DNA of 64,000 nt, taken from IMG/VR virus record IMGVR_UViG_3300047172_000052, positions 1-64,000 of that record. The stretch is one strand, 5' to 3'. The position numbers and the translations under genes are program-made. Origin of the DNA: a virus. The notes below the pieces were generated by a model. It was not told the DNA's origin and ran no database searches. It worked only from the letters and a program-made list of their open reading frames with translations. This document shows positions 8,070-35,337 of the stretch, one piece after another. Position 1 is the stretch's first letter. Each line of letters starts with the position of its first letter.

Positions 8070-8140
8070 GTGGAGGTCGTCTAGTCTGGATAGGACGCCG
8101 AGCGGCGCCGGTAACGCGGGTTCGAATCCCGCTCTCTACC
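8070..8140 (+). tRNA. tRNA-Glu-like sequence with a shortened anticodon arm
   Basis: Acceptor strands GTGGAGG (8070-8076) and TCTCTAC (8133-8139) pair with two G-U pairs. The D arm (GTCT...GGAC) and the T arm (GCGGG TTCGAAT CCCGC) are canonical and resemble tRNA-Glu. The anticodon arm between G8097 and TAAC at 8112 is only 14 nt instead of 17 and cannot form a normal stem with a 7-nt loop. No CCA is encoded. It is probably not a decoding tRNA. Confidence 0.5.
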
Positions 8141-10887: not shown

Positions 10888-10908
10888 AAATGTGCCCTAG
10901 GCGCATTT
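10888..10908. promoter_or_regulatory. operator between divergent promoters
   Basis: AAATGTGCCCTAGGCGCATT(T), a near-palindrome with a CCTAGG core, upstream of both the leftward and rightward promoters. Confidence 0.7.
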
Positions 10909-10915
10909 ATTTTGC

Positions 10916-10943
10916 TTGCATGACGCGTCAGAACGGCTTACGT
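10916..10943 (+). promoter_or_regulatory. rightward promoter
   Basis: TTGCAT (10916-10921), 16 nt, TTACGT (10938-10943). Weaker match than most; precedes the 113-aa gene. Confidence 0.5.
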
Positions 10944-10981
10944 CTGGTGTCACCGCAATGGTGCGGAACGGAGTTTAGACG

Positions 10982-11323
10982 ATGCGCGTTGCAACTTTTA
11001 CCTTGCCAGTCAATGCCAATGACGGCGCCGACCTGCGTGATGTCCATTTCGCGCTGCGTTCCGCCGCGATTGCTACGTTTGGCGGGTTTACTGCCATCGC
11101 AACCGAGGGTGGATGGCAGGATGATGCAACCGGCAAGCAATACGTGGAACCGGGAATCCTGTATCAATTCGCCATGCCGGACGATGCGGCATCGCGTGAG
11201 AAGCTCGAGTCCTTCGCGCGGTTCTACGGGCATATGGCAGATCAGGTTTGTGTCATGGTGGCGCATGCTGACGGCGCCGTAGCTTTCGTGGAATGCTTCA
11301 CGGCAGAACACGCTACGGCTTGA
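10982..11323 (+). CDS. 113-aa hypothetical protein
   Basis: Starts MRVATFTLPVNANDGADLRD and looks like an alpha-beta protein with a central GWQDDATGKQY turn. GGAACGGAG lies upstream. Paired with the 118-aa gene in one rightward unit. Function unknown. Confidence 0.6.
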   Translation: MRVATFTLPVNANDGADLRDVHFALRSAAIATFGGFTAIATEGGWQDDATGKQYVEPGILYQFAMPDDAASREKLESFARFYGHMADQVCVMVAHADGAVAFVECFTAEHATA

Positions 11324-11336
11324 ATGCCTGCCCTAC

Positions 11337-11400
11337 GGCGCCCTAGGGCGCCGTATCGGGCTTGCACAATGGCAGGGTTGGCCTGCCATGCTGCAAGCTC
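11337..11400 (+). terminator. two hairpins between cotranscribed genes
   Basis: A perfect 22-bp palindrome (TACGGCGCCCTAGGGCGCCG, 11337-11358) is followed by a second stem-loop at 11364-11400 (CTTGCA..ATGGCAGG / CCTGCCAT..TGCAAG). They could attenuate transcription. The first also shares the GCCTAGGGC core seen in some operators, so it may instead be a protein-binding site. Confidence 0.4.
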
Positions 11401-11417
11401 ACAGAGGAGGCTAGACG

Positions 11418-11774
11418 ATGCCTGCGAAGCGTAAGACAGGCGCCGATTGGCGCGACTTGGCGATTGTCGCAACCGAGGGATCACAGTTCGGCGCGATCCT
11501 TCATTGCGTCCTAGGACGCGACAAGCCGGCGCCGTGTTTCCATGGCAAGGCTATCGTTACGTCTGACGGATTCGTGCAATGCAATTTCACGGATAGCAAC
11601 GGAATCGCGCGGCATATGGTTTTCGTCGGTTCCGCTGAAGCCTTGGCGCGTAACGGCGCCGGTTTGGCGCGGCATCTCCTCCTCGGTTCCGAAGCAACCG
11701 AGGAGCTTCGTCAGGCCTTGCAATCGTGGATCGGAACCGACTATCGATCCGGCAATACAGGCGTCCGGTTCTAG
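11418..11774 (+). CDS. 118-aa hypothetical protein
   Basis: Starts MPAKRKTGADWRDLAIVATE with AGAGGAGG upstream. Beta-rich middle (GKAIVTSDGFVQCNFTDSNG) and helical C-terminus. No family recognised. Confidence 0.6.
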   Translation: MPAKRKTGADWRDLAIVATEGSQFGAILHCVLGRDKPAPCFHGKAIVTSDGFVQCNFTDSNGIARHMVFVGSAEALARNGAGLARHLLLGSEATEELRQALQSWIGTDYRSGNTGVRF

Positions 11775-12598: not shown

Positions 12599-13029
12599 GC
12601 AGCCTGGGCGCCGTCTAAGGGCGCCTGGAAGGCCTGCAGTGGGGTGATCTCCAGCAGGCACATCCGGATCGATTTCCAGGCAATTTTGGGTCAAAATCAG
12701 GCAAAATAGCCTGAAAATGGCCTATCTTTGGCCGAAAATCACCGATTCTGACCCCCAAAACAGGCTACTCGAAGGTCCCCCCGACCTGGGAAGCATGCTT
12801 CCCGTGGGTCCTCCCGCTTGCCCGGTCACCCTCCGAATTTTTCCCTTGACAGTCCGGGAATTCTTTTCCGGGTAAAGATACAAAAGTGTCGGAATCGTTC
12901 TCTATTTTTCAGGCAAGCAAAATCAATGCTTTAGGCCCTCCCTGAGGGCTTAAAGATGCAAAAGGCACGTTTTGTATCTACTAGATTCCGGTTGACAACC
13001 GCTTCAGGCAGTGTTCTTGATCGGTGATG
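12599..13029. other. convergent intergenic region rich in hairpins and repeats
   Basis: No ORF with an RBS. It contains the convergent ends of the regulator (plus) and terminase (minus) units. Visible elements: a GGCGCC hairpin near 12610, an inverted pair TTTTGGGTCAAAATC / GATTCTGACCCCCAAAA around 12684-12765, small hairpins AGGC/GCCT and GGCC/GGCC inside it, a GCCCTC/GAGGGC hairpin near 12934, and two direct copies of AAAGATRCAAAAG (12874, 12952) with an inverted copy CGTTTTGTATCT at 12968. A TTGACA at 12846 has no good -10. Confidence 0.5.
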
Positions 13030-15315: not shown

Positions 15316-15669
15316 TCAGTCGTCCTCACCGTCAGCATCGTCATCTTCTTCCTGCGATTGCAACCGACTGATGGTCACAGGACCGAATGATGGATGAACG
15401 CCATAGTAGTATTGATCCGGATCGTAGTCGGCAAGATCAGCACAGTGGAATCCGATGCCGGGCTTGCGGTCGTAGAACTTGAACATCGGTCGACCGTCCT
15501 CGTCGAGCAGCCCGCTGAACTGTGGGTCCTGATGCTTCTCCTCGTAGACAGCGCGTGCGATCACCACATCGTCACCGAAGATCGGATCGACCAGGGACTT
15601 CGGTGGCGTGTTGAAAGCTGCACGGAGGAGGCGCATGGAACCACTTGCGACGGTGCGGAACTTCTTCAT
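15316..15669 (-). CDS. 117-aa hypothetical protein
   Basis: Starts MKKFRTVASGSMRLLRAAFN and ends in a very acidic tail (SQEEDDDADGEDD). Overlaps the resolvase gene by ATGA, so it is part of the packaging operon. No domain recognised. Confidence 0.65.
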   Translation of the reverse strand: MKKFRTVASGSMRLLRAAFNTPPKSLVDPIFGDDVVIARAVYEEKHQDPQFSGLLDEDGRPMFKFYDRKPGIGFHCADLADYDPDQYYYGVHPSFGPVTISRLQSQEEDDDADGEDD

Positions 15670-16175
15670 GATTTCACCCTCGGCAGCAGTTTCTTCTTCA
15701 GCACGTGGCCCTGGTGCATGACGCCATAGAGGGCGATCATCGCTGCCTCGGCCTTGTCGGGTCTGGTGAATAGGTGGGCGCAGGCGGGAAACAATTCCTT
15801 GGCGCGATTCCGCGCCTCGTCCTTCACCTTAGGCACCCGCAGGTTCTTCTTCCAGACATCAGGCGGGATGCGTGTCAGCGGGACGTCCAAAGCCGCCAGG
15901 ACTCCCTTGATCGTTCCGTTGTTGTCGCCAAACGTGAACGCACCAACGGTGCCATCGGTCGGCATCGAGTGGACTTTCTCCAGATAGGCTGAGATGGGGT
16001 CGTTGGCGCGGATCAGCGCCGCCAGAACGACACCATCGGCTTCGGTGATGGTGCGGCTGGTGCCGAGTGTCTTCATGACCGGCATGTCGAATACGTCGAG
16101 GAATCCGTCTTCAGGCCAGATGAACGCCACCGCGCCTTTGCTGCCTGGATCGATCCCTGAAATGCAAAACGTCAT
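15666..16175 (-). CDS. RuvC-like Holliday junction resolvase
   Basis: Start set at MTFCISGIDPGSKGAV. The 169-aa protein shows the RuvC fold: GIDPGSKGAVAF (first Asp), then EKVHSMP with the catalytic Glu near residue 60, and KAEAAMIALYG near the C-terminus in place of the last acidic pair. Such phage enzymes cut branched replication intermediates before packaging, which fits the position next to terminase. The extra N-terminal residues in the longer frame are Arg-rich and unlikely. Confidence 0.8.
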   Translation of the reverse strand: MTFCISGIDPGSKGAVAFIWPEDGFLDVFDMPVMKTLGTSRTITEADGVVLAALIRANDPISAYLEKVHSMPTDGTVGAFTFGDNNGTIKGVLAALDVPLTRIPPDVWKKNLRVPKVKDEARNRAKELFPACAHLFTRPDKAEAAMIALYGVMHQGHVLKKKLLPRVKS

Positions 16176-16482
16176 GCGCCCCCGGCTCACTCTCCTGCAG
16201 GCGCGAGGCCGTCCCCGACAACCAGTCACCTGAGGCCACTGCACCACGTCAGAATGACTGACGCCTGTCAAGCAAACCGACGCACCGTCTCATGAATCCC
16301 GCTGACGCGGGCCTCTCACCAACGACCGACTCAGCGCCACCCCTACGCTCGATCGCGCCACCCCTACCCCTCGCACCGGCCCCCCGATCGCGCGCCGCCC
16401 CCAAGCCCCACAAATCAGCCGGCGTGTGCAGTGGCGCCGACTTGGAAACAATGAGGCATTGGACCAAGAAACCCATAACCTA

Positions 16483-16535
16483 TTGAATAAATTATATATT
16501 CTTTAGTAACATAAAGAAAGAGTAATAATATGGTC
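16483..16535. other. AT-rich tract
   Basis: Mostly A and T (ATTGAATAAATTATATATTC, then AACATAAAGAAAGAG) in an otherwise GC-rich genome. A possible DNA-unwinding element next to the repeats. Confidence 0.6.
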
Positions 16536-16577
16536 CCGTGGTCACACCTAACTCATTGATTTCGCTCACTGGTCCGA

Positions 16578-16611
16578 GTGGTCCAACCGGAAAACGTAAT
16601 GGTCCAGACCC
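16578..16611 (+). repeat. left arm of a 33-bp inverted repeat
   Basis: GTGGTCCAACCGGAAAACGT followed by AATGGTCCAGACCC. Complementary to 16884-16916 except for one extra A. Confidence 0.8.
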
Positions 16612-16883
16612 CCTTGGGCCAGGTTGGACCACTGTAACCCATTGATTTCTCGCCGCTTTGGTGCCACGATATAGCAACGGTCCAAGCGGTCCAACCCCAA
16701 AACGCCTGCCAGAAAAACCCCGCGTGCGCAAAATAACCATGGTTCGTTGCAACTTCATGAGTAAGATACCCACGTTTGTGTAACGAACACCCTGTATATT
16801 CCCCCCGCTCCTCCGGATTGAAAAGGGTCTGGACCACTGGACCACTTGGACCATCGAGCGTTTTCAATGACTTACGAATTGGA

Positions 16884-16916
16884 GGGTCTGGACCATTACG
16901 TTTCCGGTTGGACCAC
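16884..16916 (-). repeat. right arm of the 33-bp inverted repeat
   Basis: GGGTCTGGACCATTACGTTT then CCGGTTGGACCAC. Flanked by further TGGACC units at 16829-16855 and 16909-16938. Confidence 0.8.
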
Positions 16917-17010
16917 CTCGGACCACCTTGGACCACTCGCACAGCACCTCGCGGCAGTCTCACCGTTTGCATTCGCTTCGGTAGTGCAACGGGCTCTCCT
17001 GCCATCTTTC

Positions 17011-17062
17011 ACGCGTGAGGCGCATCTTTCTTGTTGACCGACGTCACGCTTCGTGACATACT
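17011..17062 (+). promoter_or_regulatory. rightward early promoter with operator
   Basis: Operator ACGCGTGAGGCGCAT (17011-17025), TTGACC 17034-17039, 17 nt, CATACT 17057-17062, then CATCGA. Confidence 0.85.
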
Positions 17063-17102
17063 CCCCTCCATCGAAGGACACCAGCGAAGGAGCCAGAGCA
17101 CA

Positions 17103-17303
17103 GTGCGGATCAAGACCAACGGGCGCGAAGGCATCGTCGAGTTCCTGAACGGTCAGCCCTGGTATGTGACCGTCTCCTCGCCCAACACCGGCTTCAGCCG
17201 CACCATCTGGCACAAGGACACCAAGCGCCCGATCAGCCTGCTGGCGTCGCGGTTCATCAACGCCGCCGTGAACCGGCGCAAGGGAATTGTGCCTGAGGCG
17301 TAA
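17103..17303 (+). CDS. 66-aa hypothetical protein, first early gene
   Basis: GTG start with GCGAAGGAG upstream; the upstream in-frame extension covers the promoter and is excluded. Starts MRIKTNGREGIVEFLNGQPW; small beta protein with a basic C-terminus. The operator of the next unit overlaps its last codons. Function unknown. Confidence 0.6.
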   Translation: MRIKTNGREGIVEFLNGQPWYVTVSSPNTGFSRTIWHKDTKRPISLLASRFINAAVNRRKGIVPEA

Positions 17304-17338
17304 TTCTTCTTGACGTCGGCAACCCTCCGTGACATACT
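17292..17338 (+). promoter_or_regulatory. rightward promoter with operator
   Basis: Operator GCCTGAGGCGTAATT (17292-17306, includes a stop codon), TTGACG 17310-17315, 17 nt, CATACT 17333-17338, then CATCGA. Confidence 0.85.
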
Positions 17339-17377
17339 CCTCTTCATCGAGCGCCCCTAAGGAAAGGACACATCGCG

Positions 17378-23127: not shown

Positions 23128-23179
23128 ATACGCCTGAAGAGTAACTCTCCTTGAATCCGGTCACTCGCCATGACATACT
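23128..23179 (+). promoter_or_regulatory. rightward promoter with diverged operator
   Basis: ATACGCCTGAAGAGTAACT (23128-23146, right half poor), TTGAAT 23151-23156, 17 nt, CATACT 23174-23179, then CATCGA. Confidence 0.75.
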
Positions 23180-23218
23180 CCCCTTCATCGAGACCGAGTT
23201 CATGAAGGAGATCGTGCC

Positions 23219-31956: not shown

Positions 31957-34900
31957 CTAGAACTTGAATGAACTCTCGTCGTCGGTTACTTTGTCCAGTT
32001 GAATGTTCTTCGCCACGAGTGCTGCTCGCATCTGCGATATTGGAGGACATACCCAGAAGTAAGGACGACCTATCTCTTGTCGCGGACGCAGCTTTACATC
32101 GGCGGCAAGCAGATATTCTTTCACCTTCGATGCAAGAAGGTTGTTGTCACCGACTTTATTCTTTCCTTTAGGAGTGCTTCTGATGAAGGCATTGAAGTGA
32201 TCGCGTAGTGTTGTGACCCTGATGACATTCGGCTTGTCGTCATACAGTGTGATCTCTTCGAGACCGTTCATGTCATCTACGCAACCTTCCTCCTGTATCA
32301 TCTGAACGAAGAACTTGTCCCAGGGGTCCATGCTCTCCAGCGCCTGCTCGATCAGCGCCTCGGTCTTCGGTGGATTGCGGAGGATGTTCCAATCGTCGTT
32401 TGGGGGCGACCAGTGCATCAGGTCGTAGGCCATTGCCTCGATGCCACCGGACTCCATCTGCACCTTCATGGCGCCGAAGAACTCGGTGTCCTTCATCCGC
32501 GCCTCGCCGCATTCCAGCACGAAGAAACGCCGCTCGTCGTCTAACCCCGCCGGCACAACCCACTGCTCATTGCTGACCATGGCAAGCCGTGCGTAGTTCG
32601 AGACCTCGATCGCATCGACGCCCTTCTTCTCCATCATCATCTTGTCGTTGGTGATCAGGTTCTTCAGCACGCCGCCGGCTTGCACGTCGCCGGCCCAGAA
32701 CGCCTCCTCACACACCATCAGCAGGACTCCGGACTGGTGCCCATTGAAGTTGCCGACGATGTGGTTGCGCTGTGAAACGGTGAGCGAGTAGGGATAGATC
32801 GCTCTCGCCAGCCACTTGAACAACTGGCTCTTGCCGGTGCCCTTCTTCCCCCTGATGACGACCGCCGATCCCATCTTCTCGCCTGGGCGCTGGATGATTT
32901 GCGCCATCCATGTCATCATCCAGTCGAAATACTCCTGGTTGCTTTTGCACACGTTGTCGAGGAGATGTCCTCGCAGCATGCTCCAGTCGCCACGGCGAGG
33001 AACGATGTCGAAGCCGCTCCATAGGTTGAAGGCGTTCAGGTCGCAGTGATCCGATGGTTCGAACACGATGCCATCTGCGTATGTCTCCCGCTCTTCCCAG
33101 TCGATCCACAGGCGCGACAGCGCGACGGCCTTCATGCCGTTGTCCTTGTCCGGCACCATGACCTTGCGGTTCTCGATCCGCTGGAACGTCTCAGGCTCCC
33201 AGATGACAGGCATCGTTCCGGTCTTCTGCGACTTGCGGATGATCTTGAACTTCGCACCGATGACGACGCCGGCATACTTTGTGTTCAGGTCCGCCAGCAT
33301 CTCGACCACATCATCATCCGCGACTCGGTCTTCCTTGCCGCTGGTCGACCTTCCCTTCTTGATCTCCGCATCCAATGCCCGCAGACTCAACCCCGACTGC
33401 TTCGCCAGCGTCTTCTTGAGCCCATCCACCTGCCCAGGTGACAGGTCACTGGCGCCGATGCGCCGCGCCAGGGTGACCGCCTCGTCGTCCTCGTTCTTCT
33501 TGACGTGTGAGATGGCACGCTTGGCGTCGCCGGAATTCTTGAACGGCGGCAGGGAAGTCTCCGGCGCGGCGTCTTCCTTCGCCGGCTCCTCCTCATCCTC
33601 CTCCGTCAGCGCCACCCACCGCTTCAACTCACTGGCGTCGGCGATCCCCAGCCGCTCACAGATCAGGTCGACGAAGTTGATACGGTCAAGGTCAGCACAG
33701 GAGTCATGCGAGCACCGCGCGACCGCCTGCTCCTGTTCGCTCTCGCTGGCGTTGACGCAGAAGAACCCCTTGTCATCAGGATTCCCTGCATCACTGTGAG
33801 CATCATCATTCGGGCAGCAGTGCGTGCGCCCTGGTCCCGACGACCGCGCCCCTCGATCTCCATCCGGGTCCATCTGCAGCAGGAAGTCATCGACCTCGAA
33901 CCGGTTGCCATACTTGCCGAAGAACCAAGCCATGGAGGTGGTCTTGTAGTCGCCGGCCCTGCCACCGAGTGCCTTCGCAGCGGCGTCGAACGGCGACGTG
34001 GTGACCGCCCGTAGCTCCTCCGCCGTCACCCGCTCGCACTGCTCGATGTCCAGTGGCTTGCCAGCGATGATGTCGATGCGGAACTGCCCACCAGGAGGGT
34101 GCCTGGGCGTATACATGAGCCTGGACGGGTCGACGCACGAACGGTCGAAATACGCCTCCAGGAGTTTGCTGGCGCCCGCGTAACGCTCCCGCCACTCGGC
34201 GATCGCCTTCTTCTGCGACGCTGCCCTGTCGGCGATCACGAACCGCTTTTCGAGCACCATGACGACCCGGAACTTCGGCATCGGCTGGTGCTCTAGCTGG
34301 AGGACCACACCGTTCACCGTGTGGTCAGTGCCGATCAGCTTGGCGCCCTCCAAAATGCCAGGACGATACCTCTTGCGCTCCAGGAAGTAGGTGCAGACCT
34401 GGGCGACGGTGATGTCGCCGGCCTGCTCACCAACCCATCTCAGCACCTCGTCCTTCTTGACCTCGGACACCGCTTTGAGGTGCGAGTGCGTCGTGTAGAC
34501 CACGGCGAACAACCCCAGCGCCTTGATCCGGGCAATCACCTCGTCGATGGACTCACCCGTGTCCAGGTCCAGCGTCAACAGGTCGAGGTGCGGGATGGCG
34601 TTCGCCTTGCGCTCCCCATCGATCACCGCACCCTGCAGGAAGCACTCTCCGTCCTTCTCGCCCTGCTTGTGGGTGGACAGCAGGTTGACGAATGCCCCCA
34701 GCTTCATGGGCGCATTCTTCCAGCGCCCAGGTAGGGTCTTCGATCCCTTCTTGGAGATGGCGATCTCGATGTCCCGTTCGAGCAGGATAGGGTCCAGGGT
34801 GCCATGCAGGAAGGCGTCATTGAACCGGGGCTGCGTCTCCGGCGGCGTCAGGAATGCCGCATCAAGCTCCGCCACGGTGAACCACTTATTGGTCACCTCG

Positions 34901-35337
34901 GCGAGGGTCCACCCCCCAGTCCCCGGCATCGGGACCGGATCACAGGCGGCGGACCCTTCGTCACCCAGCAGCTTCGCAATGTCATCCAGGCGGTCGCATG
35001 TCGTTCCTCCCCTCAAATCCAGGACCTCGGTCTCTGCAAGCAGGTAGATGGCGCACAGGCGCCCATCCTGGTGGGCCAGGGTGACCGTGGGAGGCACACG
35101 CTGGTGGAAGGTGTCACCGGGCTGCACCATGGCTCCCAGGCCTGTCAGGAGGCAGGGGGCGTTGTTCTCCCAGGTGACCAGATCGATGGCGCAGGCACCT
35201 TCCTGCTCGTCGACGAAGGCCTTGATCTCTTCGAGCTTGCCGGACATTAGCGCCGTATGGTCGCCCTCGATCGCAAGGTCGCCGTCCGGTGCATGTTCGA
35301 AGCAGGCAGACAAGAATGAGTCTAAGGCAGCCTGCAT
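31957..35337 (-). CDS. primase-helicase fusion (prim-pol plus SF3 helicase)
   Basis: An 1126-aa replication protein. Around residue 235-250 an LTLDLDTGE motif and later CVDPSRLMYTPRHPPGGQ fit an archaeo-eukaryotic type prim-pol core. A Cys/His cluster follows near residue 510 (CPNDDAH ... CSHDSC). The C-terminal part is a D5/DUF5906-like helicase: Walker A RGKKGTGKSQLFKW near residue 830 and Walker B MVCEEAFWAGD about 45 residues later. It would unwind DNA and lay primers for the phage DNA polymerase. Domain boundaries are estimates. Confidence 0.85.
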   Translation of the reverse strand: MQAALDSFLSACFEHAPDGDLAIEGDHTALMSGKLEEIKAFVDEQEGACAIDLVTWENNAPCLLTGLGAMVQPGDTFHQRVPPTVTLAHQDGRLCAIYLLAETEVLDLRGGTTCDRLDDIAKLLGDEGSAACDPVPMPGTGGWTLAEVTNKWFTVAELDAAFLTPPETQPRFNDAFLHGTLDPILLERDIEIAISKKGSKTLPGRWKNAPMKLGAFVNLLSTHKQGEKDGECFLQGAVIDGERKANAIPHLDLLTLDLDTGESIDEVIARIKALGLFAVVYTTHSHLKAVSEVKKDEVLRWVGEQAGDITVAQVCTYFLERKRYRPGILEGAKLIGTDHTVNGVVLQLEHQPMPKFRVVMVLEKRFVIADRAASQKKAIAEWRERYAGASKLLEAYFDRSCVDPSRLMYTPRHPPGGQFRIDIIAGKPLDIEQCERVTAEELRAVTTSPFDAAAKALGGRAGDYKTTSMAWFFGKYGNRFEVDDFLLQMDPDGDRGARSSGPGRTHCCPNDDAHSDAGNPDDKGFFCVNASESEQEQAVARCSHDSCADLDRINFVDLICERLGIADASELKRWVALTEEDEEEPAKEDAAPETSLPPFKNSGDAKRAISHVKKNEDDEAVTLARRIGASDLSPGQVDGLKKTLAKQSGLSLRALDAEIKKGRSTSGKEDRVADDDVVEMLADLNTKYAGVVIGAKFKIIRKSQKTGTMPVIWEPETFQRIENRKVMVPDKDNGMKAVALSRLWIDWEERETYADGIVFEPSDHCDLNAFNLWSGFDIVPRRGDWSMLRGHLLDNVCKSNQEYFDWMMTWMAQIIQRPGEKMGSAVVIRGKKGTGKSQLFKWLARAIYPYSLTVSQRNHIVGNFNGHQSGVLLMVCEEAFWAGDVQAGGVLKNLITNDKMMMEKKGVDAIEVSNYARLAMVSNEQWVVPAGLDDERRFFVLECGEARMKDTEFFGAMKVQMESGGIEAMAYDLMHWSPPNDDWNILRNPPKTEALIEQALESMDPWDKFFVQMIQEEGCVDDMNGLEEITLYDDKPNVIRVTTLRDHFNAFIRSTPKGKNKVGDNNLLASKVKEYLLAADVKLRPRQEIGRPYFWVCPPISQMRAALVAKNIQLDKVTDDESSFKF

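Follow-up and report, generated by a model that had tools for sequence, protein, structure and literature searches.

The virus record comprises 77,853 bp and belongs to a tailed phage; the 64-kb stretch of it analysed here is called the window. The phage genes recognised are those for portal, TerL, TerS, a Holliday-junction resolvase, rIIA, rIIB, a T4-type RNA ligase and a 1126-aa primase-helicase. A gap of about 480 bp (16459-16936) separates an operon on the minus strand, running from the resolvase gene through a 117-aa ORF to TerS and TerL, from small early genes on the plus strand, in agreement with the divergent operons described in an earlier reading made from the letters of the DNA (the sequence-only reading). 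That reading had considered no gene credible here and had named homology of the repeats to a decayed coding gene as evidence that would speak against an origin. The ORFs of 120, 150 and 80 aa that overlap the gap gave no PHROG match and were not selected by a codon-usage gene caller, so that neither an intact nor a decayed gene is detectable; at the DNA level, the region matched no known phage. To the right, the promoter listed in Table 1 is followed by a second sigma-70-like promoter of the plus-strand early ORFs at 17310. A 61-nt repeat occurs upstream of early genes at 17015-17075, 17291-17351 and 23132-23192, with TTGACN-17-CATACT in the first two copies and CATACTCC followed by CATCGA in all three; these repeats are likely repeated early promoters. 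Elsewhere in the window, GGCGCC and ACGGCGCC palindromes are dense among small ORFs at 10900-11750 (up to six ACGGCGCC per 500 bp), and a tRNA at 8070-8140 was matched by Rfam with 37 bits and missed by ARAGORN.

Iterons, inverted repeat and IHF sites in the gap

Twelve of the window's 38 exact copies of TGGACC/GGTCCA fall within 475 bp (16460-16934). In 5000 simulations with a local first-order Markov model, the average was 0.47 and no run exceeded 4, so that the numerous units claimed before are borne out. The iteron word is TTGGACCAC, with a tandem spacing of 8-10 bp (tandem periods 8, 9, 9, 9 and 10), and 14 sites are arranged across 480 bp in two mirrored halves, those left of about 16700 being mostly reversed and those right of 16829 all forward. 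Several short iterons, in part in tandem near the helical period, are likewise the mark of SaPI Rep/Cch2-type origins. In k-mer clustering, 16459-16936 emerged as the densest cluster of the window; no comparable cluster was found in the last 14 kb of the record, and no iteron-array-like sequence elsewhere in the record. The origin-like region delimited by the sequence-only reading is thus real, but its start at 16483 was set too far to the right, as the functional unit begins at 16459. The AT-rich tract of about 50 bp that had been noted is also present and has the highest A+T content of any 50-bp segment in the window.

The previously described 33-bp inverted repeat was recovered, the sole difference between the left arm and the reverse complement of the right arm being one extra A. 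Apart from its two halves, the window has no 16-nt inverted repeats with arms at most 500 bp apart, and a repeat search extended the repeat as a whole to 42 nt at 81% identity. Because the arms are separated by a 272-bp spacer and consist mostly of inverted iterons, the proposed cruciform is not supported: extrusion with such a spacer is unlikely and also not needed. The long inverted repeat may be a duplicated half-array. The tidy long-range single-strand fold of the region (z -9.2) is explained by the symmetry of the inverted iterons. A skew profile had been suggested as a check; cumulative GC skew, which is confounded by gene and transcription direction, peaks at 12.4 kb and reaches its minimum at 44.3 kb, both away from 16459-16936.

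Table 1. Features of the origin-like element, its neighbours and the proposed initiator gene (window coordinates)
Feature	Position	Strand	Remarks
Holliday-junction resolvase gene (phrog_1770)	15666..16175	-	left neighbour; first in operon running to TerS, TerL
Whole origin-like element	16459..16936	.	iterons, IHF sites, AT tract; non-coding gap
Outlying iteron	16459..16467	+	TTGGACCAA
IHF-like site	16476..16488	-	ATTCAATAGGTTA; 1 mismatch; edge of AT tract
AT-rich tract	16481..16530	.	86% A+T; candidate DNA-unwinding element
Exact IHF consensus site	16549..16561	-	AATCAATGAGTTA; 10 nt before GTCC of the 16569 iteron pair
Iteron pair	16569..16586	-	CTGGTCCGA, GTGGTCCAA; 9-bp period
Inverted repeat, left arm	16578..16611	+	
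Iteron	16599..16607	-	ATGGTCCAG
Iteron	16624..16632	+	TTGGACCAC
Exact IHF consensus site	16635..16647	-	AATCAATGGGTTA
Iteron pair	16677..16694	-	ACGGTCCAA, GCGGTCCAA; 9-bp period
Three iterons	16829..16854	+	CTGGACCAC, CTGGACCAC, TTGGACCAT; 8- and 9-bp periods
IHF-like site	16862..16874	+	TTTCAATGACTTA; 1 mismatch; same 10-nt spacing to the 16829-16854 iterons, mirror orientation
Inverted repeat, right arm	16884..16916	-	33/34 identical, one 1-nt gap
Iteron	16888..16896	+	CTGGACCAT
Three iterons	16908..16936	+	TTGGACCAC, TCGGACCAC, TTGGACCAC; 10-bp period
Sigma-70-like promoter	17034..17062	+	TTGACC-17-CATACT; right-hand early genes
Proposed initiator	31957..35337	-	1126-aa primase-helicase; DUF5906 (SF3-type) helicase domain

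A second motif, TAACYCATTGATT, recurs alongside the iterons, and its reverse complement AATCAATGRSTTA matches the IHF consensus WATCAANNNNTTR. Three exact matches to this consensus occur in the window versus 0.51 expected, and two of the three lie inside the element, an enrichment beyond chance of the kind looked for in an IHF-assisted origin; these two and two further sites with one mismatch had been overlooked in the earlier reading. Two of the four sites (16549 and 16862) have an iteron partner at a fixed distance, and the site at 16635 is without a properly spaced one. Counted by hand on the sequences, the offset from the IHF site to the first GTCC is 10 and 10 nt in the window. In five of the arrays from other genomes described below, it is 10 and 10 in L122, 10 in L064 (degenerate site), 11 in L132, 9 and 9 in L070 and 20, i.e. 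one helical turn more, in L121, so that the offset of the window recurs at seven sites to within 1 nt or one helical turn. Across 23 arrays, eight IHF sites were counted in 10.1 kb as compared with nine in 260 kb of flanking DNA, corresponding to a 23-fold higher density in the arrays. The third exact site of the window (12921-12933) is located in the gap just 3' of TerL and could be relevant to packaging or to a second cis element.

Arrays behind primase-helicase genes in phages and plasmids

The 1126-aa protein carries an AAA+ helicase domain of the SF3/D5 type (PF19263 at 2e-21, with fold matches to NrS-1 and SaPI5 PriRep1), which sequence searches placed next to NrS-1 (6k9c, 6lrb). Its C-terminal region is conserved among relatives. 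An AlphaFold model of residues 780-1126, built on an eight-sequence alignment, was poor overall (mean pLDDT 65), with a C-terminal helix-helix-strand-helix part at a local pLDDT of about 80; with the C-terminal model, Foldseek returned the NrS-1 helicase (6k9c) and SaPI5 PriRep1 in complex with dsDNA (7pds). No repeats were found adjoining the primase-helicase gene of the window, and the array at 16459-16936 is located about 15 kb from it rather than directly downstream.

The comparison set was assembled through pattern and homology searches and does not represent an unbiased survey. When viral contigs were scanned for TGGACCACTTGGACCAC, 40 stretches emerged, many of them collagen-like coding repeats and others noncoding two-way TTGGACCAC arrays similar to that of the window. 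A scan of 84,980 genomes yielded 63 stretches, about nine of them arrays, most matches being single chance pairs within ORFs. Collagen-like coding repeats of the Gly-Pro-X type (L035, L036, L038, L046-L048, L051, L061-L063, L067 and others) were discarded. A looser scan for the companion motif plus iteron added 24 matches, none of them a noncoding window-like array and three of them repetitive and coding-like, and the TGGACC array was absent from the resolvase and terminase relatives L005-L027. One companion match, L176 in the record of L069, adjoins an apparent tRNA/integrase site and was left unused.

The sequence-only reading had called for a comparison with related phages. Like arrays were found in unrelated phages, most of them directly 3' of a primase-helicase gene. 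The gene is of the DUF5906 type in L050, L064, L066/L132 (Kaistia), L121 (Rhizobium), L122 (Methylobacterium) and L150, encodes a VapE helicase in the L031 group and L056, a DUF927 helicase in L126 (Ruegeria) and L139, and a Prim-Pol/AAA_25 (RepA-like) protein in L034; in L057 the array lies 340 bp 3' of an AAA_25 gene. The neighbours of the noncoding arrays L053, L105, L155 and L158 were not recognised as primases. In the named isolate Rhizobium phage RHph_X2_30, 12 TGGACC words form four alternating triplets around AT-rich stretches, about 2.9 kb 3' of a DUF5906 gene; this array is at the end of the record (MW980061.1), and about ten ATCACAGCGTTACG-like repeats at the start of the record (L211:50-500) are next to it.

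The closest homologue of the window primase in the phage database belongs to Microcystis phage Mwe-JY26 (42%). There, a 712-bp gap 3' of the primase gene holds TTGGACTC iterons together with a mirrored pair of exact IHF sites, and is followed by five short ORFs and, 1.8 kb later, by TerS and TerL. As the order array-TerS-TerL is common to Mwe-JY26 and the window, it is the primase gene that has a different position in the window; the array is directly downstream of the initiator gene in JY26, L122, L121, L064 and the plasmids described below. No iterons were found 3' of the primase relatives in YuA, Pam3, TM26, Lacusarx, RXM, L02 and L069, indicating that the pairing of array and primase is not universal. 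The record of L070 (PP438418.1) is labelled as a Microcystis phage; this stretch has perfect IHF sites and a GC content of 60.8% (window, 60.7%); since Microcystis has a GC content of about 42%, the host label may be wrong. GGTTAAC clusters (7-10 words) were seen 3' of TerL in relatives of the window terminase (L014:10650-11300 and L015:2150-2800), and further ones at 130951, 132301 and 146151 in Erythrobacter phage L02 (OL955261.1).

Eight plasmids encoding a DUF5906-type primase-helicase (98 kb in one case, 27 kb in two, below 10 kb in all others) all carry iteron words of their own in the gap of about 0.5 kb 3' of this gene, which in one case includes two tiny ORFs. The words are CCCTGGACA, GCACAGGCT, GTATGACAA, TTTTCCACG, CCCTGACCA, AACCTGTAA, TACCTGC and GATGTGTAACC, and their differences suggest a separate specificity for each initiator. 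In five of the eight, an independent score ranks the gap first for iteron content within the locus; in pMNOD07, pTH2c and pIsolateG_E, iterons can be made out by eye but the gap does not rank first. Plasmid pEC224_4 also encodes a RepB-family initiator, so the DUF5906 protein need not be the sole initiator there. In the 8.9-kb E. coli plasmid pRHB04-C06_4 (L214:4700-4830, CP058022.1), GATGTGTAACC iterons occur together with the exact IHF site TATCAATAAGTTA 3' of the primase-helicase gene.

A candidate replication origin and its relation to known systems

The sequence-only reading had proposed a replication origin, and the support for this proposal comes through comparison, as like arrays lie 3' of primase-helicases in phages and plasmids. 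We consider it probable that 16459-16936 is the iteron replication origin of the phage, or a main one, and that it is served by the phage's own DUF5906 primase-helicase. The data show the sequence elements with their statistics, the recurrence of such elements next to genes of this kind in other phages and plasmids, and the protein's domain homology; from these we infer the steps of binding, melting and initiation and the pairing of protein with DNA across 15 kb. The winged-helix-like C-terminal domain of the primase-helicase would bind the TTGGACCAC iterons, whose mostly reversed orientation on the left and forward orientation on the right would allow two opposed helicase rings to assemble. 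Host IHF would then bend the DNA at the sites phased to iteron pairs and join the two halves, the AT tract would melt, and the self-loading SF3-type helicase would unwind outward while the primase part begins synthesis. Against this model stand the position of the AT tract at the left edge instead of between the halves, the primase-helicase gene 15 kb away, the skew extremes elsewhere, the primase relatives with no iterons 3' of the gene, the four arrays with no recognised primase as neighbour and the poor overall quality of the AlphaFold model.

The repeats might instead bind TerS and form a packaging site upstream of the terminase operon, bent by IHF. A precedent is cosB of phage lambda, where repeated R sites occur together with an IHF site. 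In the window, TerS and TerL lie two genes leftward of the region, and terminase genes also follow the array in L064, L122 and L070. We nevertheless regard packaging as quite improbable: plasmids without an annotated terminase have a like array 3' of their primase-helicase gene, L031, L034, L050, L056, L126 and L139 share a primase or helicase as neighbour, and the constant partner of the array is the replicative helicase, not the terminase. A control region without a role in replication, where the repeats are binding sites of a regulator and IHF acts on the architecture of divergent early and late promoters, is hardly more probable. It would suit the position between divergent operons, with sigma-70-like promoters beginning just to the right, and the frequent action of IHF in transcription; but neither of these promoters (17034 and 17310) lies within the repeats, elsewhere the array is 3' of a primase gene and usually not at a divergent promoter, and 14 sites in 480 bp arranged in mirrored halves exceed the usual needs of an operator. 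Packaging and control are possible readings that fit the plasmid and primase-neighbour data poorly.

The element may also be an origin with another initiator, a small phage DNA-binding protein or a host factor, to which the DUF5906 protein is recruited as helicase or primase; we consider this unlikely, if the least so of the three alternatives. A common third binder would fit the occurrence of TTGGACCAC with DUF5906, VapE, DUF927 and AAA_25 helicases, as would the distance between array and primase gene in the window. However, the word varies by element, which would be expected of initiators that differ in specificity; the small plasmids share few other genes; and in SaPI/SCCmec the C-terminal domain of the helicase itself binds iterons, directly 3' of the helicase gene (PMC7581432).

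Returning to the origin served by the primase-helicase, we propose tentatively, and with slightly more doubt than confidence, that it represents an unrecognised broad class for DUF5906 and related primase-helicases of phages, prophages and small plasmids: a fast-changing iteron word of about 9 bp in mirrored half-arrays, phased with IHF sites and normally situated behind the initiator gene, which in large phages would be separated from the origin, the latter acting over many kb. Our literature searches found no mention of DUF5906 together with a replication origin, and those for the array words returned unrelated subjects only. Most tailed-phage origins are unmapped, and a link of DUF5906 and its kin to an iteron-plus-IHF element would, if true, permit origin prediction for phages and plasmids in large number; it would likewise pair initiator domains with iteron words, and the recognition code of these helicases could be read from such pairs. 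Small Escherichia coli plasmids with the same layout make the proposal directly testable in laboratory strains, CP058022.1 being a convenient test system.

Among known systems, the P4 alpha protein is a fusion of primase and helicase whose C-terminal winged helix recognises short iterons in cis, and P4 with its ori and crr thus shares the fusion and the short iterons with the window, but differs in iteron word, IHF sites and host range. The NrS-1 primase-polymerase-helicase is the closest solved relative of the window helicase domain; its template recognition word, given as TTTGGTTA in the parts of the source consulted, has no match in the window, and those parts describe no iteron origin for it (PMC8718748). 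In pRN1, the origin is located just 3' of the orf904 primase/SF3-helicase/winged-helix gene, as in the layout of the window's relatives, and is functional when relocated on the plasmid, which implies that such an origin need not adjoin its gene (PMC4234260). The pRN1 origin is a stem-loop of about 100 nt without iterons; the gap region of the window has a strong long-range fold (z -9.2), with the 272-bp spacer between arms that are mostly iterons. With SaPI Rep and SCCmec Cch2, the window shares short iterons, an AAA+ (SF3/D5-type) helicase and, in the predicted structure, the fold match to SaPI5 PriRep1 with dsDNA (7pds); the helicases of these systems have a C-terminal dsDNA-binding domain, for which the winged-helix-like C-terminal region of the window protein is a candidate counterpart; the origin directly 3' of the helicase gene is common to these systems and most of the relatives found, but not to the window. 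Unlike SaPI/SCCmec, the window is part of a tailed-phage genome, its helicase is of the DUF5906 type, 15 kb separate its array from the proposed initiator gene, and its array carries IHF sites at fixed spacing. The element is best read as an iteron origin of the SaPI Rep/SCCmec Cch2 kind for an SF3-type initiator helicase, with IHF bends.
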